Below, piece after piece: positions 54,676 through 64,000 of a stretch of DNA of 64,000 nt (the stretch's first letter is position 1; the number at the start of each line of letters is the position of its first letter). The notes beneath the pieces are model-generated. The model made no database searches. It worked only from the letters and a program-made list of their open reading frames with translations, and was not told the DNA's origin. The DNA comes from Mycolicibacter minnesotensis (GTDB taxonomy: Bacteria > Actinomycetota > Actinomycetes > Mycobacteriales > Mycobacteriaceae): assembly GCF_010731755.1 (NCBI RefSeq), contig NZ_AP022589.1, positions 2,046,001-2,110,000 of the forward strand. The letters are read 5' to 3'. A program made the position numbers and the translations under genes.

Positions 54676-55131
54676 CTACTTGGTGATGGTGATCCGCTGC
54701 GGCTGGCTGCCGGCGTACACGCCCGCTACCCGCACCGTCAGAACGCCGGCGTCATAGGACGCAGAGACGGCTTCGCCGGTGACGTTCGCGGGAACTGCGA
54801 ACGAGCGGCGGAACGCGCCGTAGCGCACCTCGCGAAGCGTGCGGTGGGTGTCGCCCTCGGTGTCGGCATGCTCGTCGCGGCGTTCGCCGTGGATCACCAG
54901 TCGACCACCGCCCAATTCGATCGTCACGTCCTTGTCGACGTCGATGCCGGGTAGCTCCAGCCGGACCACCGCGTCGTCGCCGTCCTTGATGATCTCGGCG
55001 GCCGGGTGTAGTCCGCTCGAAGCGGGCGATCGCCAGTCGTTGGCCGTGGCCGGGCCGAAGAAGTCTCGGACCCAACGGTCGGTGTCGGAGGCGGGCTTGA
55101 GTGGACGCTGCCAGAGTGTCAGAGTGCTCAT
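54676..55131 (-). CDS. hsp: Small heat-shock protein (Hsp20/Acr2-type)
   Basis: A 151-residue alpha-crystallin chaperone matching Rv0251c (159). The core domain includes AEIIKDGDDAVVRLELPGID, GGGRLVIHGERR, RYGAFRRSFAVP and GVLTVRVAG, followed by the short C-terminal extension QPQRITITK with an I-x-I-type motif. It holds unfolded proteins in a refoldable state during stress. The ATG at 55131 follows AAAGGAGAG. A HAIR-like HspR site lies 63 bp upstream and supports heat induction, as known for acr2. Confidence 0.92.
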   Translation of the reverse strand: MSTLTLWQRPLKPASDTDRWVRDFFGPATANDWRSPASSGLHPAAEIIKDGDDAVVRLELPGIDVDKDVTIELGGGRLVIHGERRDEHADTEGDTHRTLREVRYGAFRRSFAVPANVTGEAVSASYDAGVLTVRVAGVYAGSQPQRITITK

Positions 55132-55193
55132 GGGTCTCTCCTTTGAGGTGATTGCCGCGTGCCGGTCTGGTGCCGGTCCGTCACCGAGTAGAA

Positions 55194-55214
55194 CTTGAGT
55201 CGACCGCGCTAAAG
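55194..55214. promoter_or_regulatory. HAIR-like HspR site
   Basis: CTTGAGT-N7-GCTAAAG follows the HspR inverted repeat CTTGAGT-N7-ACTCAAG with one perfect arm and 5 of 7 matches in the other, at the exact 7-bp spacing. It lies 63 bp upstream of hsp, whose M. tuberculosis counterpart is HspR-controlled. Confidence 0.6.
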
Positions 55215-55258
55215 TTCCGCGTTCGCCATGGGTGAACACCAGCGCATATGCCCTTCGG

Positions 55259-55274
55259 TGTGACCTGGGTCACA
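55259..55274. promoter_or_regulatory. CRP-type site upstream of nirB
   Basis: TGTGACCTGGGTCACA fits TGTGA-N6-TCACA exactly and is a perfect palindrome outside the central TG. Its centre is about 85 bp upstream of the proposed nirB transcription start, and it lies 128 bp from the hsp start. A mycobacterial CRP (Rv3676-type) is the likely binder. Confidence 0.7.
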
Positions 55275-55338
55275 TTTGCGTGAGCACACCTTCACGCATT
55301 TGTAACGTAGAGCGATATACCAGCAATGATTGATTGCC

Positions 55339-55344
55339 TAATCT
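55339..55344 (+). promoter_or_regulatory. -10 element implying leaderless nirB mRNA
   Basis: TAATCT lies seven bases before the nirB ATG, the distance at which transcription would begin on the A of the start codon. There is no ribosome binding site before that ATG (a T-run instead), which supports a leaderless transcript. Confidence 0.5.
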
Positions 55345-55351
55345 TTTTTGT

Positions 55352-57919
55352 ATGACCACGATCGAAACGCCGCGCGCCGTCAGGGACCTTGTGGTGGTCG
55401 GCCACGGCATGGTGGGCCACCGCTTCGTGGAGGCGCTCCGTAGCAGGTCAGGCGACGAGAACTGGCGGGTCACGGTGCTTGCCGAGGAGGCCGATCCCGC
55501 CTACGACCGCGTCGGGCTGACCTCCTACACCGACGGCTGGGACAGGACGCGGCTGGCGCTGCCCGGCAACGACTACGCCGGCGACGAACAGGTGCGGCTG
55601 CTACTGAGCACCCGAGTCGCCCGCCTCGACCTCTCCGACAAGTCGGTGGTCGCCGCGGACGGTCGGCGCTACGGCTACGACACCCTGGTACTGGCGACGG
55701 GATCGCGTGCATTCGTACCGCCGGTCCCCGGCCACGATCTGCCCGGTTGCCACGTTTATCGAACCCTGGATGATCTGGACGGGATCCGGGCCGACATCGA
55801 ATGCATGCTCGAAGTCGGCAACAGTCGCGCCGGAGTGGTGATCGGCGGCGGACTGCTGGGTCTGGAAGCGGCGAACGCGTTGCGCGCCTCCGGGGTCGAA
55901 CCGCACATCGTCGAGATGGCACCGCGGCTGATGCCGCAGCAGCTCGACGATGCCGGTGGGGTGCTGCTGAGCCGGATGATCTCGGATCTGGGCATCGCGG
56001 TGCACGTCGGCGTCGGCACCGAGGCGATCGAGCAGCTCACCCACGAGCACGGGTCGCCGAGCCTGCGGGTGCGCCTGTCCGATGGCACCGCGATCGAGGC
56101 CGGTCTGGTGATCTTCGCCGCCGGTGTCCGCCCCCGTGACGAGCTGGCTCGTGAGGCCGGACTGGCAGTCGCCGATCGGGGCGGGGTCTTGACCGACCTC
56201 TCCTGTCGGACAAGCCAATCCGATGTCTACGCGATCGGCGAGGTCGCCGCCATCGAAGGCGTCTGCTACGGCTTGGTGGGACCTGGCTACACCAGCGCAG
56301 AGGTGGTCGCCGACCGGCTGCTCGACGGCTCGGCAGAATTCGGTGAGGCCGATATGTCGACCAAGCTCAAGTTGCTCGGCGTCGACGTCGCGAGCTTCGG
56401 GGACGCGATGGGAGCCACCGAGAATTCCCTGTCGGTGGTGATCAACGATCCGGTGAAGCGAACCTACGCCAAGCTGGTGCTGTCCGACGACGCGAAGACG
56501 CTGCTCGGCGGGATTCTGGTGGGCGACGCATCGTCTTACGGCGTCTTGCGTCCGATGGTCGGCGCCGAACTGCCCGGCGACCCGCTGGACCTGATCGCAC
56601 CGGCCGGCGCGGGTGAAGGCAAGACCACCTTGGGGATCAGCGCGCTGCCCGGTGCGGCGCAGATCTGCTCCTGCAACAACGTCACCAAAGAGCAGCTGTG
56701 CGAGGCGATCGGCGGCGGTTGCCACGATGTGCAGAGCCTCAAGGGCTGCACCAAGGCAGGGACCTCCTGCGGATCGTGCATCCCGCTGCTCAAAGAACTG
56801 CTGGTGGCCGAGGGGGTGGAGCAGTCCAAGGCGCTGTGCGAGCACTTCGCCCAGTCGCGCGCCGAGCTGTTCCAGATCGTGCAGGTCACCGGTATTCGTA
56901 CCTTCTCCGACCTGCTGGATCGGTTCGGCACCGGCCACGGCTGCGATATCTGCAAGCCCACCGTCGCCTCGATCTTGGCGTCCACCGGCTCCGAGCACAT
57001 CCTCGACGGTGAGCAGGCTGCCCTACAGGACACCAACGACCACTTCCTGGCCAACATTCAGCGCAACGGCAGCTACTCGGTCGTTCCGCGGGTTCCCGGG
57101 GGTGAGATCAAGCCCGAACACCTGATCCTGATAGGTCAGATCGCCCAGGAGTTCGGCCTATACACGAAGATCACCGGCGGACAGCGCATCGACATGTTCG
57201 GTGCCCGGGTGGACCAACTACCTCCCATCTGGCGCAAGTTGGTCGACGCCGGAATGGAATCTGGTCAGGCCTACGGCAAGTCGCTGCGGACGGTCAAAAG
57301 CTGCGTCGGTAGTGATTGGTGTCGCTATGGGCAGCAGGACTCCGTGAAGATGGCCATCGACTTGGAGCTGCGCTACCGCGGGCTGCGTGCGCCGCACAAG
57401 ATCAAGATGGGGGTGTCCGGCTGCGCTCGGGAGTGCGCCGAGGCGCGCGGCAAAGACGTCGGCGTGATCGCCACCGAAGTCGGCTGGAATCTCTATGTCG
57501 GAGGCAACGGGGGGATGTCGCCCAAGCACGCCCAGCTGCTCGCCAGCGACCTCGACACCGAGACGGTGTTTCGCTACGTCGACCGATTCCTGATGTTCTA
57601 CATCCGCACTGCCGACCGGTTGCAGCGCACCGCGCCGTGGATCGAGTCGATCGAAGGCGGCCTCGACCACGTCCGCGATGTCGTCTGCGACGACTCGTTG
57701 GGGCTGGCCGAGGAGTTCGAGTCCGAGATGGCCCGCCACGTCGACAACTACACCGACGAATGGAAGGGGGTTCTCGACGATCCGGAGAAGTTGTCGCGGT
57801 TCGTGTCGTTCGTCAACGCCCCCGACGCCGAGGACCCCACCGTCGCGTTCACGGTGCGCGACGGGCGCAAAGTCCCTTTACCCGTCCCAGTCCTGCGTTC
57901 ATCTAAGGAGGAATCATGA
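55352..57919 (+). CDS. nirB: Nitrite reductase (NADH) large subunit
   Basis: An 855-residue assimilatory nitrite reductase subunit (Rv0252, 853) reducing nitrite to ammonium. Domains in order: FAD/NADH reductase (VVVGHGMVGHRFVEAL; GVVIGGGLLGLEAA), two BFD-like 2Fe-2S regions (CSCNNVTKEQLC ending CGSC; GHGCDICKPTV), and the sulfite/nitrite reductase part with siroheme/4Fe-4S Cys in SCVGSDWCRYG and GVSGCARECAEARGKD. The ATG at 55352 gives the expected length. A CRP site and a -10 box lie upstream. Its stop overlaps the nirD ATG. Confidence 0.96.
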   Translation: MTTIETPRAVRDLVVVGHGMVGHRFVEALRSRSGDENWRVTVLAEEADPAYDRVGLTSYTDGWDRTRLALPGNDYAGDEQVRLLLSTRVARLDLSDKSVVAADGRRYGYDTLVLATGSRAFVPPVPGHDLPGCHVYRTLDDLDGIRADIECMLEVGNSRAGVVIGGGLLGLEAANALRASGVEPHIVEMAPRLMPQQLDDAGGVLLSRMISDLGIAVHVGVGTEAIEQLTHEHGSPSLRVRLSDGTAIEAGLVIFAAGVRPRDELAREAGLAVADRGGVLTDLSCRTSQSDVYAIGEVAAIEGVCYGLVGPGYTSAEVVADRLLDGSAEFGEADMSTKLKLLGVDVASFGDAMGATENSLSVVINDPVKRTYAKLVLSDDAKTLLGGILVGDASSYGVLRPMVGAELPGDPLDLIAPAGAGEGKTTLGISALPGAAQICSCNNVTKEQLCEAIGGGCHDVQSLKGCTKAGTSCGSCIPLLKELLVAEGVEQSKALCEHFAQSRAELFQIVQVTGIRTFSDLLDRFGTGHGCDICKPTVASILASTGSEHILDGEQAALQDTNDHFLANIQRNGSYSVVPRVPGGEIKPEHLILIGQIAQEFGLYTKITGGQRIDMFGARVDQLPPIWRKLVDAGMESGQAYGKSLRTVKSCVGSDWCRYGQQDSVKMAIDLELRYRGLRAPHKIKMGVSGCARECAEARGKDVGVIATEVGWNLYVGGNGGMSPKHAQLLASDLDTETVFRYVDRFLMFYIRTADRLQRTAPWIESIEGGLDHVRDVVCDDSLGLAEEFESEMARHVDNYTDEWKGVLDDPEKLSRFVSFVNAPDAEDPTVAFTVRDGRKVPLPVPVLRSSKEES

Positions 57920-58284
57920 ACAACAGCAACATCGAAACCTGGACCACCGCTTGCCATTACGACAGTCTGCTGCCCGGACTCGGTGTCGGTGTGTTGCTGG
58001 CCGACGGCAAGCAGGCCGCACTGTTTCGCTTGGACGACGGCTCGATCCGCGCGGTGTGCAACATCGATCCGTTCTTCCGGGCGGCGGTCATGTCCCGCGG
58101 GATCGTCGGCGACCGTGGCGGGCGGCTGTCGGTCATCTCGCCGTTGAAGAAGCAGGCGTTCGCCCTCGACGACGGCAGCTGCCTGGATGACCCCGAGGTG
58201 TCGGTGCGGGTGTACCCGACCCGGATCACCCCGGACGGCTATGTGCAGGTCGGCCAGGTCGGTCCCCAGAGGGCTGTCGCCTAG
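57916..58284 (+). CDS. nirD: Nitrite reductase (NADH) small subunit
   Basis: A 122-residue small subunit (Rv0253, 118) with a Rieske-like fold. It lacks the CxH and CxxH pairs that bind a Rieske cluster, as is normal for NirD, and serves in assembly or stability of NirB. The ATG overlaps the nirB stop (ATGA) and has AAGGAGGAA just upstream. Its TAG shares the CTAG at 58,281-58,284 with the stop of the convergent nnaR gene. Confidence 0.93.
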   Translation: MNNSNIETWTTACHYDSLLPGLGVGVLLADGKQAALFRLDDGSIRAVCNIDPFFRAAVMSRGIVGDRGGRLSVISPLKKQAFALDDGSCLDDPEVSVRVYPTRITPDGYVQVGQVGPQRAVA

Positions 58285-59432
58285 CCGGCCGCCTGGCCCA
58301 TGCTCAGATCCATGTCCGCCTGATCCACCGCCAAGCGGTATCCCCGTTTGACGACGGTGGCGATGATGTTCTTGTCGCCCAGGCTGGTGCGCAGCCGCAG
58401 CACAGCGGTCTCCACCGCGTGGGTGTTGGCCCCGTGGCCAGGCAGTGCCGCTAGAAGCGTCTCGCGTGAGACGACTCTGCCCGGCTGGTGCGCCAGTGCG
58501 CGCAGTGTGGCCATGCCCGCCGGCGAGACCGGCCTGGACACCCCGTCGACCGAGACTCCGCTGCCGCTGATCTCGATACGGTGACCGGCCGCGGAGATGA
58601 TGTGGGTGCGCAGTCGCGGCAACTCATCGGCGATGTGTCGGGCCAACGCCCCCAGCCGCATCCGCTTCGGCGCCGAGGTCGGAACACCCAACAGTTCCAG
58701 TGGCCGCGCCGTCAACGGCCCGATGCACATGGCCTGTACGTCGGATCGCAGTGCGCGCAACAAGGCGTCGGAGATACCCAGTTCGGCCGCACGAGTCAGC
58801 GTCGCCATGACAGCCGCCGCGGAGGTGAAGCTGACCGCGTCGAACTGCCGCTGCGAAATCTGGATCGCCAGCTTGTCGAACTCACCGCCGGGCCGGGCCG
58901 GCCGCCACCGGTAGACCGGGATGGGCAGCACCTCGGCTCCGGCTTTGCGGAACTGCTCTAGCAGCTCCGGTACCGGATCCCAGTCACCGGTGGTGCCGTG
59001 CAGCTGAACCGCGATGCGGGCACCGGCGATATCGGACTTGAGATAGTCGGCGATGGCCGCAGATGACTCGGAATCGGGGGACCACTCCTCGGGCAGGCTG
59101 ACGGTGCGCAACGCTTCCACCGCTTTGGGGCCGCGCGCCACGATCCGCGCGGTGGACAAGGCCGCGATCAGCTGCTCGGCCAGACCCCATCGGTGTGCGG
59201 CCCCGATCCAGCCGCGGAAGCCCATCGCGGTCGTCACCACGAGCACGTCGGGCGGCGCCTCGATCAAGGATTCGGTACGCCCGCGCAGCGCGACGTCGTC
59301 GGTCAGATCGATCATGGTGATGGCCGGGGACGCGCAGACCGTGGCGCCGTGGCGCCGAAGCAGGTTGGCGAGCTCGTCCGCGCGTCGCGCTGATGTCACC
59401 GCGACGCGGTAGCCGCAGAGAGAGCCGGCCAC
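58281..59432 (-). CDS. nnaR: HemD-like domain/winged-helix regulator NnaR
   Basis: A 383-residue protein (Rv0260c, 381). Residues 1-270 resemble uroporphyrinogen-III synthase (VAVTSARRADELANLL, VVTTAMGF, VSFTSAAAVMATL), and the last 100 residues form an OmpR-type winged helix (VSPAGMATLRALAHQPGRVVSRETLL, AVETAVLRLRTSLG, IIATVVKRGYRLAV). Orthologues act with GlnR as regulators of nitrate/nitrite assimilation, so it is called NnaR rather than HemD. The GTG at 59432 comes one base after the narK stop. The winged-helix part is duplicated as a free-standing gene at 61,707. Confidence 0.88.
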   Translation of the reverse strand: MAGSLCGYRVAVTSARRADELANLLRRHGATVCASPAITMIDLTDDVALRGRTESLIEAPPDVLVVTTAMGFRGWIGAAHRWGLAEQLIAALSTARIVARGPKAVEALRTVSLPEEWSPDSESSAAIADYLKSDIAGARIAVQLHGTTGDWDPVPELLEQFRKAGAEVLPIPVYRWRPARPGGEFDKLAIQISQRQFDAVSFTSAAAVMATLTRAAELGISDALLRALRSDVQAMCIGPLTARPLELLGVPTSAPKRMRLGALARHIADELPRLRTHIISAAGHRIEISGSGVSVDGVSRPVSPAGMATLRALAHQPGRVVSRETLLAALPGHGANTHAVETAVLRLRTSLGDKNIIATVVKRGYRLAVDQADMDLSMGQAAG

Positions 59433-59433
59433 G

Positions 59434-60834
59434 TTATGCCGTAGCCATCGCGGCCAGCGCGGGCTTCGCGGGCTGTACGACGTAGATCGGCCGACGCACA
59501 TATCGCAGCCACGTCAGCGCCCCGGCGACGACGTAACCCACCAGGAAGATGCAGAAAGCCGCAGTGGCCGAGCCGCTGGTCATGTACGACTGGCGCAGCG
59601 CCAGGTTGATCCCTACGCCGCCGAGGGCGCCGATGGCACCGGCGAATCCGATCAACGCCCCGGACATGGCGCGCGCCCATTGCCGTCGATCGGTTTCGCG
59701 CATGCCCAGGCGGTGACTGCGCGCCTCGAAGACCGAAGGGATCATCTTGTACACCGAGCCGTTGCCGATTCCGGAAACGATGAACAGCGCCACAAAGCCG
59801 ATCACGTAGCCGACCATGATCGCCCCGGATGTGGGGCCGCTGCGGTTGCCGTCGATGGTGCTCACGGCGACGAGAAGTCCTGAGGCCGCGAACAGGCCGC
59901 CGAAGGCCGCCAGCGTGACGCGACTGCCGTCGAGCCGATCCGCCAGGCGGCCGCCGACAATCCGGGACAGTGACCCCAGAAGCGGCCCCAAGAACGCAAT
60001 CTGGGCCGCGTGCAGGGAAGCCGACGCGGGGCTTTGGCCGCCCCCGACGAAGCTGATCTGCAGCACCTGACCAAACGCGAAGGAGAATCCGATGAACGAG
60101 CCGAACGTCCCGATGTAGAGCAGGGCGACGATCCAGGTGTCGAGTTCGGGAAGAATCGACCGCATCGCCGTCAGGTCGGCCTTCTGACCGTCGAGGTTGT
60201 CCATGAACAGCGCCGCGCCGATGGCAGCTACCGCGAGCACCACCAGGTAGATCGCACATACCCAGTACGGCTGTCGGTTACCGGCGGTGGCCAGCACCGC
60301 CAGGCCGACCAGCTGGATCAGGGGCACACCCAGGTTGCCGCCACCGGCGTTGACCGCCAGCGCCCAACCCTTGAGCCGGTGTGGGTAGAAGGCATTCACG
60401 TTGGTCATCGAGGCCGCGAAGTTGCCGCCGCCCAGACCGGTCAGGGCCGCGCACACCAGGTAGGGCCACAGGGGCAGGCCGGGATGCGCCAGCAGGCCCA
60501 TCATCCCGACGGTGGGAACCAACAGGACCAGCGCCGAGAAGATCGTCCAGTTCCGGCCGCCGAACGCGGCAGTGGCCAGCGAGTAGGGGATGCGCAGCAC
60601 GCCGCCGGCCAGGGTGGCGGTGGCCGCCAGCAGGAACTTGTCGCCGGCGGTGAAGCCGTAGACCGCTTCAGGCATGAACAGCACCATGACCGACCAGATC
60701 GACCAGATCGAGAAACCGGCGTGTTCGGCGATGGTCGACCAGATCAGATTCCGCCGAGCGATCTTGTCGTTACCGGCCGTCCAGGCCACGGTGTCTTCAG
60801 GATCCCACCTTGTGATTACGTGTGAACGCGCCAT
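59434..60834 (-). CDS. narK3: Nitrate/nitrite transporter, NarK family, copy 1
   Basis: A 466-residue major-facilitator transporter with about 12 helices, matching Rv0261c (NarK3, 469). RRNLIWSTIAEHAGFSIWSIWSVMVLFMPE near the N-terminus and the nitrate-signature stretches ALTGLGGGNFAASMTNVNAFYP and GIGNGSVYKMIPSVFE are readable. The ATG at 60834 aligns with NarK3 and with copy 2; an ATG at 60867 would add 11 residues. It is followed with one base between by nnaR, so uptake and control are co-transcribed. Confidence 0.92.
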   Translation of the reverse strand: MARSHVITRWDPEDTVAWTAGNDKIARRNLIWSTIAEHAGFSIWSIWSVMVLFMPEAVYGFTAGDKFLLAATATLAGGVLRIPYSLATAAFGGRNWTIFSALVLLVPTVGMMGLLAHPGLPLWPYLVCAALTGLGGGNFAASMTNVNAFYPHRLKGWALAVNAGGGNLGVPLIQLVGLAVLATAGNRQPYWVCAIYLVVLAVAAIGAALFMDNLDGQKADLTAMRSILPELDTWIVALLYIGTFGSFIGFSFAFGQVLQISFVGGGQSPASASLHAAQIAFLGPLLGSLSRIVGGRLADRLDGSRVTLAAFGGLFAASGLLVAVSTIDGNRSGPTSGAIMVGYVIGFVALFIVSGIGNGSVYKMIPSVFEARSHRLGMRETDRRQWARAMSGALIGFAGAIGALGGVGINLALRQSYMTSGSATAAFCIFLVGYVVAGALTWLRYVRRPIYVVQPAKPALAAMATA

Positions 60835-61017
60835 GAAGTCACGGTAGAAATCTTTCGTTACCGCCATGCTGCCCGAAATGACCCGCCCGTGAACTTCTCC
60901 TCACGGAGCTGACGTGCCGCAGTGGGGACGGCGTCTACTCACCACGCGTGGAAGGCGCCCCGGGGTAGCCGGTCCGACACGATGCCGGCGCTCCTGCCGG
61001 CGGTCGAGGGAGCAGGT

Positions 61018-61710
61018 TCAGCGCACCGAGACCCGTGGTTGAGCGGTGATGAACCGGTCGGCGACGATACGGGCGATCCCGGGATGGGTGCCCAGTGGCT
61101 TGGTCACCAGATCTGCGCCGGCGGCATACAGACGGCGCTGAAACAGGCCGTCGGCCAGTAGGTAAGACGCCACGGCGACACGGCCCGGGCGGCGGCTGCG
61201 CAGGCAGGCCACGGCCTCGGCGACGCTGGGTCCGCCGGTTGCTGCGAAAGCCAGTTCGACGGGCGCATCGATCAACGCAGACAGCAGCTCGGTGGCCCGG
61301 ATCAGGTCATTGCGCGCGGCGGGGTCCGACGATCCCGCTGCCGCGAGAATAACCGAATTACCTGCACGCCAGCCGGATTCAATCAGCCGAGCCGCGACCA
61401 CTGCGGCAACGCGCGGGTCGGGTCCGAGTGCCGGAGTGAGGGTGACGTCCGGGTGTCCGCTGGCCGCGACGTGAGTGGGTACGTCGACTCGGACGTGATA
61501 TCCACGTGCCAGAAAGGCGGGCACGAGTATCGCCGGGCGGCCGCTGTCGGCCTCCGCGGCAAGGACCTCCGCCGGACTGGGTCCCAGCACGTCGACGAAT
61601 GCCACCCTGACCGGCTGCGCCAGCAGCGAACCCACCCGTTCGGCCAGCTCTCCGATCATGACGACACCCTCGGGCGCCCGGGTGCCATGCGCGACCAGCA
61701 CCGGGGTCAT
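61018..61710 (-). CDS. Sirohydrochlorin ferrochelatase (CbiX/SirB-type)
   Basis: A 230-residue chelatase made of two similar halves, matching Rv0259c. The metal-site His residues are in VLVAHGTR near the N-terminus and in FLARGYHVRVD; AAAGSSDP lies in the second half. It should insert iron into sirohydrochlorin to make siroheme, the cofactor of NirB and sulfite reductase. Its ATG overlaps the stop of the free winged-helix gene (ATGA). It lies between two narK genes in the nitrite assimilation block, which supports the siroheme assignment. Confidence 0.88.
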   Translation of the reverse strand: MTPVLVAHGTRAPEGVVMIGELAERVGSLLAQPVRVAFVDVLGPSPAEVLAAEADSGRPAILVPAFLARGYHVRVDVPTHVAASGHPDVTLTPALGPDPRVAAVVAARLIESGWRAGNSVILAAAGSSDPAARNDLIRATELLSALIDAPVELAFAATGGPSVAEAVACLRSRRPGRVAVASYLLADGLFQRRLYAAGADLVTKPLGTHPGIARIVADRFITAQPRVSVR

Positions 61711-62015
61711 GCGACGCCCTGCTCACTGTCGACCGCCAACCGGTACCCGCGTTTGACCACAGTGGCGACGATCTGGCTGTCGCCGAGCGCAGTTCGTAAC
61801 CTCAGCACCGCGGATTCCACCGCGTGCGTGCTGGTGCTGCGGCCCGGGAGGGCCCGCAACAGCGTGTCGCGAGCAACCACGTGACCCGGACGCTGCGCGA
61901 GCACGCGCAGAGCGGCCAGGCCGGCGGGGGAGACCGGCATCACAATACCGTCGACGAGGACCCGGCTCTCCTCGATCTCGATCCGGTGACCGGCGGCGTT
62001 AACGGCGGTACTCAT
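61707..62015 (-). CDS. Free-standing winged-helix protein, copy of the NnaR DNA-binding domain
   Basis: A 102-residue protein consisting almost wholly of one OmpR-type winged helix. GHRIEIEESRVLVDGIVMPV, VSPAGLAALRVLAQRPGHVV, HAVESAVLRLRTALGD and IVATVVKRGYRLAVDSEQ align without gaps with the last 100 residues of NnaR, with roughly two thirds of positions the same by eye. The HemD-like sensor part is absent: only 90 bp separate the ATG at 62015 from the narK copy 2 stop. It overlaps the chelatase start by four bases. It could bind NnaR targets without ligand control. Confidence 0.82.
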   Translation of the reverse strand: MSTAVNAAGHRIEIEESRVLVDGIVMPVSPAGLAALRVLAQRPGHVVARDTLLRALPGRSTSTHAVESAVLRLRTALGDSQIVATVVKRGYRLAVDSEQGVA

Positions 62016-62104
62016 GTACAAGGTGTAGCCCCAGCCGATTTCATCGGTGTTACCGACCGATTTCCGAATAGTTGCTCCATCGGGTCGGTGGCGTCCATCA
62101 CGCA

Positions 62105-63508
62105 TCACGCCGACACCTTCTCGGGGTCCTGCGCACCAGCGGCCCGATGGGAGCCTCGTGCCAGCGGAGGCCGGCGGACGTACATCACCCATGTCAGTCC
62201 CGCAGCCGCGCAGTAGGACGCCAGGAACACCCAGAACGCCGGTGTCTCGCTTCCGAAGCTGGCGTATGCCTGCCGCAGAATCAGGTTGATGGCCACCCCG
62301 CCGAGTGCACCGACCGCGGTGGAGAACCCGATCAGTGCACCAGAATGCGAACGGGACCAATGGCGACGTTCCGCTTCAGTGGCAGCCAGTGAGCGGCTTC
62401 GGGCCTCGAAGATCGACGGAATCATCTTCAGCACGGACCCGTTTCCCATCCCGGCCAGAACGAACAGCACCATGAAAGCCGCGATGTAGAACACGATCGT
62501 CGAGGTAGCAGCGCGACTGTTGTGGTCATCGATGGTGCTGGTGACGACCAGCACCGCAGAGGCCACGATCATGCCGAGGAACACCACCAGGGTTACCCGC
62601 CCGCCACCACGGCGGTCGGCCACCCGACCACCGTAGATGCGGGATAGGGCGCCCAATAGGGGCCCCAGAAAAGCGATTCGGGCGGCGTAGAGCGCCGCCT
62701 CGGCGGGGCTGTGGCCGGCTTTCTCGAAGGTGGCGTGCAGTACCTGGGCGAAGGCGAAGGCGAATCCGATGAACGAGCCGAAAGCTGCGCAGTACAACGC
62801 CGAAACGATCCAGCTGTCGGGGACTGACAGAATCGATCGGATGCCGCCCACCTCTTGCCCGCCGTGGTCGAGGTTGTCCATCCACAGCGCAGAACAGACG
62901 CCGATCACGGCCAGCAGTACCAGGTAGATCGCGCACACCAGTTCGGGCTTGGTGTTGCCGACTGTGGCCAGTACCAACAGGCCGACCAGCTGGATGGCGG
63001 CGACCCCGAGGTTGCCTATGCCGCCGCACAGCCCGAGGGCGACGCCTTTGAGTCGTTGCGGGTAGAAGGCGTCGACGTTGGCCAGCGCCGCGGCGTAGTT
63101 GCCGCCGCCCAATCCGGTCAGCGCCGCGCACACCAGATACATCCAGAGCGGTTGACCGGGATTGATGAGCAACAGCAGCGTCCCCACGGTGGGAATCAGG
63201 AGAATCAGCGACGAGAACACCGCCCAGTCTCGGCCGCCGAACTTCGCGTTGGCCCGCACGTACGGAACGCGGGCGCATCCGCCGACCAGAGTGGCGACCG
63301 CCGCCAGCAGAAGTTTGTCACCGGCCTTGATGCCGTAGACGGATTCGGGCATGAACAGCACCACCACCGACCATAACGACCAGATGGAGAACGCGACATG
63401 CGTGCTGGCGGTGGACCAGATGAGGTTGCGTCGCGCGATCGCGGCATTGCCGGCCTCCCAGGCCGCGCAGTCCTCCGGATCGAAATTGCTGATGTGGCGC
63501 TTGGTCAT
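62105..63508 (-). CDS. Nitrate/nitrite transporter, NarK family, copy 2
   Basis: A 467-residue paralogue of copy 1 with the same helix pattern: RRNLIWSTASTHVAFSIWSLWSVVVLFMPE, ALTGLGGGNYAAALANVDAFYP and GMGNGSVLKMIPSIFEARSRSL. The two align along their whole length, so the gene arose by duplication. The ATG at 63508 has AGGAGA about seven bases upstream and gives MTKRHISNFDPED, matching copy 1; the open frame to 63559 is ignored. It precedes the free winged-helix gene by 89 bp, mirroring the narK-nnaR order. Confidence 0.92.
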   Translation of the reverse strand: MTKRHISNFDPEDCAAWEAGNAAIARRNLIWSTASTHVAFSIWSLWSVVVLFMPESVYGIKAGDKLLLAAVATLVGGCARVPYVRANAKFGGRDWAVFSSLILLIPTVGTLLLLINPGQPLWMYLVCAALTGLGGGNYAAALANVDAFYPQRLKGVALGLCGGIGNLGVAAIQLVGLLVLATVGNTKPELVCAIYLVLLAVIGVCSALWMDNLDHGGQEVGGIRSILSVPDSWIVSALYCAAFGSFIGFAFAFAQVLHATFEKAGHSPAEAALYAARIAFLGPLLGALSRIYGGRVADRRGGGRVTLVVFLGMIVASAVLVVTSTIDDHNSRAATSTIVFYIAAFMVLFVLAGMGNGSVLKMIPSIFEARSRSLAATEAERRHWSRSHSGALIGFSTAVGALGGVAINLILRQAYASFGSETPAFWVFLASYCAAAGLTWVMYVRRPPLARGSHRAAGAQDPEKVSA

Positions 63509-63633
63509 ACGGTCTCCTCGGGCTCCGGGACCACCGCTATACGAAGAATCTCGCATCACGATGGACGGAGTGCGAACCTACCGAGCCGATCTGGCAAGCA
63601 GCAGAGCAGAACCTGAAAATGAGATGGACCGCC

Positions 63634-63654
63634 GACGCCGGAGTGGCCGGCGTC
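63634..63654. terminator. Hairpin after the SbtA-like gene
   Basis: GACGCCGG and CCGGCGTC form a perfect 8-bp stem with a 5-base loop, 82 bp after the SbtA-like stop on the minus strand. No T-run follows. The rest of the gap 63,509-63,735 should contain the narK copy 2 promoter but no clear motif was seen. Confidence 0.5.
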
Positions 63655-63735
63655 ACGTATTTAGCCTAGGCGCAGCGCATTTCGCCTGGCTGAGCAGCTC
63701 AGCGACGAAGCGTTGCGTTCGGTTGGAAACATCTG

Positions 63736-64000
63736 TCAGCTGACTGGAAACCAGCCGTCGACTGCCTTCGCGAACTGGAGATACAGCGGAATTCCGATGG
63801 TCACGTTGTAGGAGAACGTGAGTCCCAGGGAGGCGGCCAGCGGCACCGTGGGACTGGCCTCGGGTATGGCCGCTCGCTGCACCGCGGGTACCGCGATGTA
63901 GGACGCCGCGCCACACAGCACCGCGAACAACACGTAGCTGCCGGTCTCGAAGTGGGTACCGGTAAGCAGGGCATAGATACGGATGATGATGATCCCGCTC
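63736..64000 (-). CDS. SbtA-like sodium-dependent bicarbonate transporter, 5' end outside window
   Basis: The last 87 residues of a membrane protein whose start lies beyond 64000. The visible part has two helices and ends with VLFAVLCGAASYIAVPAVQR, IPEASPTVPLAASLGLTFSYN and TIGIPLYLQFAKAVDGWFPVS, the C-terminal signature of the SbtA-like (DUF897) bicarbonate transporter family. It should import bicarbonate with sodium. No internal ATG in the visible region is a true start. Assignment rests on the C-terminus only. Confidence 0.75.
   Translation of the reverse strand, partial: SGIIIIRIYALLTGTHFETGSYVLFAVLCGAASYIAVPAVQRAAIPEASPTVPLAASLGLTFSYNVTIGIPLYLQFAKAVDGWFPVS

Follow-up and report, generated by a model that had tools for sequence, protein, structure and literature searches.

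A free-standing NnaR-type DNA-binding protein of the M. terrae complex, best read as an original nnaR that has lost its sensor

In this work, a free-standing winged-helix protein gene, here called Short, was analysed together with its neighbours in a window of 64 kb, by which we mean the whole stretch of DNA under study. The features of the locus are collected in Table 1. The Short frame lies on the minus strand, with its ATG at 62015 and its stop ending at 61707; the first-pass annotation had named no strand, and the plus-strand reading of the same interval contains a stop. Upstream lies narKb, whose ATG is at 63508 in an open frame extending to 63559, and the gap between narKb and Short is 89 bp. 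Short thus stands behind a second narK just as nnaR stands directly behind the first, narKa, as had been proposed. On the other side, the start of the chelatase gene overlaps the Short stop by 4 bp (ATGA), and such an overlap, ATGA or GTGA, was found in 21/21 genomes of the clade, which upholds the suggested tie to siroheme supply. Like nnaR, Short is flanked by narK and sirB and has nirBD close by. The nirB and nirD names follow protein family and the literature. The ATG of narKa at 60867 is not conserved in many relatives, and the stretch read as its first 12 codons may belong to the promoter instead of the gene. On inspection by eye, a minus-strand frame beside nirB (54676-55239) resembles an Hsp20-type small heat-shock protein.

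Table 1. Features of the window around Short, with positions in the 64-kb stretch
Feature	Position	Strand	Basis
nirB promoter elements: GTCAC-N6-GTGAG pair (55269-55284) and GlnR-type box TTCAC-n6-GTAAC	55269..55306	+	
Nitrite reductase genes nirB and nirD, convergent with nnaR	55334..58284	+	open frames, conserved order
Full-length nnaR, HEM4 and Trans_reg_C	58281..59501 (longest open frame)	-	Pfam, PRK07239
narKa, which precedes nnaR and encodes the second nitrate/nitrite transporter	59434..60867	-	Pfam MFS_1
Candidate NnaR-type operator before narKa, CCCAC-N17-GTGAG	60900..60926	-	one mismatch to CTCAC-N17-GTGAG
sirB/CbiX-type siroheme chelatase gene	61018..61710	-	Pfam CbiX PF01903
Short, free-standing NnaR-type winged-helix DNA-binding protein, 102 aa	61707..62015	-	open frame, translation, Pfam
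GlnR-type array GCAAC-n6-GAAAT-n6-GTAAC-n6-GAAAT, upstream of Short	62038..62075	-	motif score and homology
narKb, nitrate/nitrite transporter upstream of Short	62105..63508	-	Pfam MFS_1

A Pfam search of the 102 residues gave the single domain Trans_reg_C (PF00486, E 1.6e-11), with neither HEM4, the HemD-like sensor, nor the receiver domain of OmpR/PhoB response regulators. The missing HemD-like sensor had been claimed before and is borne out; the full-length NnaR of the window has HEM4 as well as Trans_reg_C. The domain is a complete winged helix of the OmpR/PhoB type, with the N-terminal sheet, three helices and the wing. By BLASTP it is identical to the C-terminus of the window NnaR at 65/92 positions (71%, E 1e-41), although the match spans residues 5-96 of 102, so the earlier statement of an alignment along the whole length holds nearly and not fully. 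The recognition helix and wing are nearly identical in the two proteins (H, AV, LRLR, LGD, ATV and KRGYRL are common). By contrast, two positions that are invariant in the NnaR of the clade, T at residue 63 and K at residue 80, have drifted in Short; the former lies where the recognition helix begins or just before it, the latter beyond it. Against NCBIfam PRK07239, Short scores 116.6 bits (cut-off 273) and covers profile positions 281-377 only, compared with 509.8 bits for the full-length NnaR of the window. Because the HEM4 domain is absent, Short is regarded as an nnaR derivative and not as a full member of the NnaR family. Four of the short-form rows listed (P0002, P0005, P0031 and P0033, 101-103 aa long) are annotated as 'bifunctional uroporphyrinogen-III synthetase/response regulator domain-containing protein'; since the window protein has no synthase part, this name is misleading.

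The distribution was examined in a sample of 396 broad-genus genomes, taken evenly from a larger group. Among the matches listed, a free-standing Short occurs in 21 genomes. A NarKb orthologue of at least 80% identity was found in the same 21 genomes only (next best 67% in the 396 genomes), and an independent marker, the 569-aa HemD, picks out the same 21 at 90-100% identity (next best 86%). As both proteins mark the same set, every one of the 21 genomes sampled from this clade (Mycolicibacter, M. terrae complex), a group of environmental mycobacteria, carries Short. Named NarKb matches of 78-94% identity, at 18 of 80 loci, are mostly from Mycolicibacter: arupensis, heraklionensis, nonchromogenicus, engbaekii, kumamotonensis, sinensis, senuensis, algericus, longobardus, icosiumassiliensis and unnamed strains. 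A protein search limited to 56-178 aa matched 119 proteins, and 43 of the best 44 are 101-110 aa long with 72-95% identity, the M. terrae protein MTER_38110 being among these short-form matches. Further free-standing domains of the NnaR type, 98-111 aa long (P0041, P0043, P0046, P0047, P0050, P0053 and P0058; one is from Mycobacterium sp. M1), do not fall clearly within Short in the tree, and the sensor may have been lost from NnaR more than once. Two related 108-aa proteins (P0117 and P0118, 50-51% identical) have their own N-terminus and a VVKRGYRLAV wing; they are possibly another free-standing form in other bacteria. A literature search, with subscription journals mostly outside its scope, found no description of a short NnaR in the titles and abstract starts listed, and one on stand-alone effector domains yielded nothing of use.

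Purifying selection on Short was looked for and is clear. The median dN/dS is 0.186 (210 pairs from 21 genomes, median dS 0.75), and 0.155 for the domain columns. The corresponding values are 0.143 for the NnaR domain and 0.181 for the HEM4 part (153 pairs each), and 0.198, 0.159 and 0.182 for the neighbouring chelatase, NarKa and NarKb. The constraint on the domain is uneven, the slackest pair being G372-G174 (0.378), with G016-G022 at 0.301. The frame is uninterrupted by stops in 21/21 genomes, and together with the low dN/dS this makes Short a working protein gene.

In relatives with the order narK-nnaR-sirB, Short has its counterpart in position in the full-length nnaR, the stop of which overlaps the sirB start (ATGA or GTGA) in 19/19 comparators with a full-length nnaR before sirB. 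GlnR boxes have been described with an a-b-a-b pattern and half-sites GTnAC/GnAAC, different from those of NnaR (PMC3662644, PMC10704036). In the gap before Short, four half-sites of this kind lie 11 bp apart, the fourth ending in AAAT and not AAAC in most genomes. Taking the best place in 150 bases, with shuffles (of single bases, not dinucleotides) scored likewise, the mean best score of the array before Short is 13.10 of 16 (21 genomes; shuffles 8.70). Before the full-length nnaR it is 13.11 outside the clade (shuffles 8.76) in 18 of the 19 comparators, G187 being left out as it is cut by a contig end, and 9.00 inside the clade (18 genomes; shuffles 8.34). Moreover, the 62 bases before the ATG of Short align with those before nnaR of six comparators (G343, G141, G403, G095, G215 and G118) at a mean score of 12.62 (shuffles: mean 1.98, largest 2.56), and the first GCAAC stands 60 bases before the ATG in 20/21 Short genomes and in these six comparators. 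A second comparator group of four aligned more weakly (3.68; shuffles at most 2.54). The stretch upstream of the full-length nnaR of the clade scored 2.53 against the nnaR promoters, no better than chance; to judge from this, the full-length nnaR of the clade is without the ancestral nnaR promoter.

The first-pass annotation had explained the locus by duplication of a narK-regulator block with loss of the sensor in the copy. A sensor-less derivative of nnaR is indeed present, but a fresh block duplication as the whole story was rejected, as a fork with support 98/93 separates NarKa from NarKb in an outgroup tree (29 of 55 NarK rows and 20 of 80 loci), where NarKb is on a long branch. Nor does loss in the copy fit the ancestral promoter and place of Short. 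In a midpoint-rooted tree of the 55 NarK rows, NarKa groups with the first NarK of genomes with the order narK-narK-nnaR-sirB (100/98), a grouping not recovered in the outgroup tree. NarKa and NarKb are not sisters, and Short has retained the position, the promoter and the chelatase overlap of the ancestral gene, so that the original nnaR seems to be the shortened copy. Short is thus best read as the original nnaR from which the sensor was removed in frame, with promoter, start and sirB overlap left in place, and the plainest reading is that this loss came after a second full-length nnaR copy lay behind narKa. In the domain tree, Short forms one group (99/98), which was no longer resolved after 16 proteins were added, and the domain trees leave undecided whether Short or the full-length nnaR is the older copy. 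A separate observation concerns G174, where a second fragment of the region (L069, 5794-7307) consists of the 206 terminal codons of nirB, 95% identical to those of the window, followed by nirD and by the C-terminal 171 residues of NnaR. The main copy is about 110 kb away; the fragment looks imported, since in the tree the NnaR domain that it encodes falls with those of G093 and G154 and not with the NnaR of G174 itself.

Full-length nnaR is absent from 3/21 genomes (G016, G316 and G375), each of which retains NirB, NirD, both NarKs, the chelatase and Short. The place of nnaR is taken by an insertion-like remnant in G016 (with a weak integrase match, E 0.0095, that fails the cut-off), by an MmyB-type HTH regulator in G316 and by a HAD-type hydrolase in G375. 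In the NarK tree, G316 and G375 are sisters and G016 branches separately, which implies at least two losses of nnaR. Between the two sisters, dN/dS of the Short domain is 0.035. In a search of 10 genomes, the sole HEM4 protein of each of these three was the ordinary, distant hemD; a separately encoded sensor was thus rejected for the three nnaR-less genomes, and none stands beside Short.

The NnaR motif of M. smegmatis has been reported as ctCAC[a/c]-16N-[t/g]GTGag (PMC6277429). Before narKa, CTCAC-N17-GTGAG occurs exactly and at a fixed distance in 14 of the 18 nnaR-bearing clade genomes; the window genome has one mismatch, and the operator was not seen in G102, G097 and G250. It is absent from all three nnaR-less genomes, which may be partly due to kinship and to their shorter sirB-narKa gap. 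Before nirB, the clade has a CTCAC-N6-GTGAG pair (exact in 11/21, with one mismatch in 4) followed by the GlnR-type box, compared with an exact N17 or N18 pair in 12 of the 19 comparators outside the clade. This difference corresponds to one helix turn; the closer spacing may be suited to a regulator that has no sensor part to dimerise through. The N6 pair is kept in nnaR-less G016 and missing in G316 and G375, which speaks against a need for it in the latter two genomes. Neither of them has a CTCAC/GTGAG pair at narKa or nirB at the spacings examined, and therefore Short may have other targets there. Upstream of narKb, no such pair was found within one mismatch in 21/21 genomes. A clade-wide conserved region at about 63520-63740, with a block around CCAAGGCATTTACAGGTTCT...CTTGCCAG, lies upstream of narKb and holds neither NnaR nor GlnR pairs. 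Scanning nine whole genomes for CTCAC-N17/18-GTGAG gave 2 to 7 sites in each (reversed control 0 to 3); apart from the one at narKa, several sites turn up in two to four of the genomes, but the scan yields no target list. The recurrent site that was inspected, in G316, is inside a frame that resembles murA by eye.

In M. smegmatis, GlnR is reported to bind and drive nnaR, with a strong GlnR peak at the nnaR promoter (PMC3662644), and loss of glnR strongly lowered nnaR transcripts (log2 -9.37 under limitation; PMC6277429). For nirB of the same species, co-activation by NnaR together with GlnR has been described (PMC10704036). We hypothesize, giving the proposal roughly even odds, that Short is a shortened original nnaR which is driven by GlnR, is blind to the signal and binds NnaR half-sites as a partner of GlnR. 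Under nitrogen limitation, GlnR would turn on Short and sirB jointly. The GlnR-type promoter, which the first-pass annotation had missed, would set the timing of Short production, although Short may also act constitutively, as suggested there. Judging from the recognition helix and wing, Short would bind the half-sites CTCAC/GTGAG irrespective of nitrate or nitrite; as the sensor is lost, it probably acts without sensing either. It would then serve as the GlnR partner at nirB and related promoters, and the full-length NnaR, behind narKa and with its own operator, would provide the nitrate/nitrite-dependent part. In three genomes, Short is the sole remaining NnaR-type protein. The isolated DevR effector domain is reported to give only feeble activation (PMC3029386), and the isolated KdpE DNA-binding domain to bind without activation (PMC3264566). 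Together with the drift at residues 63 and 80, this argues against strong activation by Short, and we lean towards mild activation or tuning over pure repression.

Competition with NnaR, another earlier suggestion, would mean that Short takes up the half-sites of NnaR, does not activate from them and weakens the NnaR response, in the manner of a dominant-negative isoform. The nearly identical recognition helix suits such a role, as does the drift at residue 63, just before that helix. Activators of the OmpR/PhoB fold contact RNA polymerase at this very place, just before the recognition helix. The behaviour of the isolated KdpE domain (PMC3264566) points the same way. However, competing with NnaR cannot be the only role of Short, since 3/21 genomes keep it without NnaR, two of them sisters with the low domain dN/dS given above, and we consider this explanation unlikely. 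It is more doubtful still that Short has kept the fold and changed its targets, regulating other genes, e.g., its own narKb-Short-sirB unit. The Short-specific residues, the disappearance of the known operators at narKa and nirB in G316 and G375, and the conserved upstream region of narKb would agree with this, but the recognition helix and wing are nearly unchanged and narKb is without the CTCAC/GTGAG pair throughout the clade. There is very little likelihood that the frame is mainly a leader coupling translation to sirB, with regulation incidental: the clade-wide 4-bp overlap would serve this purpose, but the constraint sits in the Short protein and equals that on the domain of NnaR, and coupling would not require a whole winged helix. 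Finally, a decaying remnant of a duplicated nnaR, to which the absent sensor, the long G016 branch in the domain tree (0.34) and the slack G372-G174 pair might point, is contradicted, as far as sequence tells, by the frame intact in 21/21 genomes, by the median dN/dS at the observed dS and by the kept promoter region, and can practically be discounted.

NnaR (SCO2958, MSMEG_0432, MAB_3520c) is a HemD-OmpR orphan regulator of nitrate/nitrite assimilation. Short resembles it in the DNA-binding domain, the promoter type, the place between narK and sirB and the sirB overlap, but differs in the missing HemD-like sensor and in length (102 aa compared with about 380-400). It also resembles the isolated effector domains of DevR and KdpE and that of PhoB in solved structures, in which the DNA-binding part stands apart from the control domain. 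These pieces are laboratory constructs, whereas Short is a natural, clade-wide gene of the OmpR type; DevR, moreover, is of the NarL/LuxR type. In GerE, also of the NarL/LuxR type, the DNA-binding part is likewise separated from the control domain. GlnR, which governs nitrogen metabolism globally in actinomycetes, differs from Short in its receiver-like N-terminal domain. More is learned from three facts: Short has inherited a GlnR-type promoter, is retained across the sampled clade and survives without NnaR.

In a 2024 M. abscessus paper, nitrate/nitrite sensing by NnaR and the role of the HemD-like domain are called unknown (PMC11162112). A natural, clade-wide NnaR without this domain, behind the same kind of promoter, lends itself directly to comparison: should Short prove to work without nitrate, the HemD-like part would be a sensor or a brake. 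The three genomes with Short only predict a shift from nitrate-dependent to purely nitrogen-limitation-dependent control. More broadly, and tentatively, with chances that we put somewhat below even, the NnaR switch may have been split in the M. terrae complex into two forms. One, without the sensor, would respond to nitrogen limitation alone and be coupled to the supply of siroheme; the other, with the sensor, would be tied to its own narK. The sensor-less form may then have taken over in at least two lineages, where nitrite assimilation would answer nitrogen starvation and not nitrate or nitrite.
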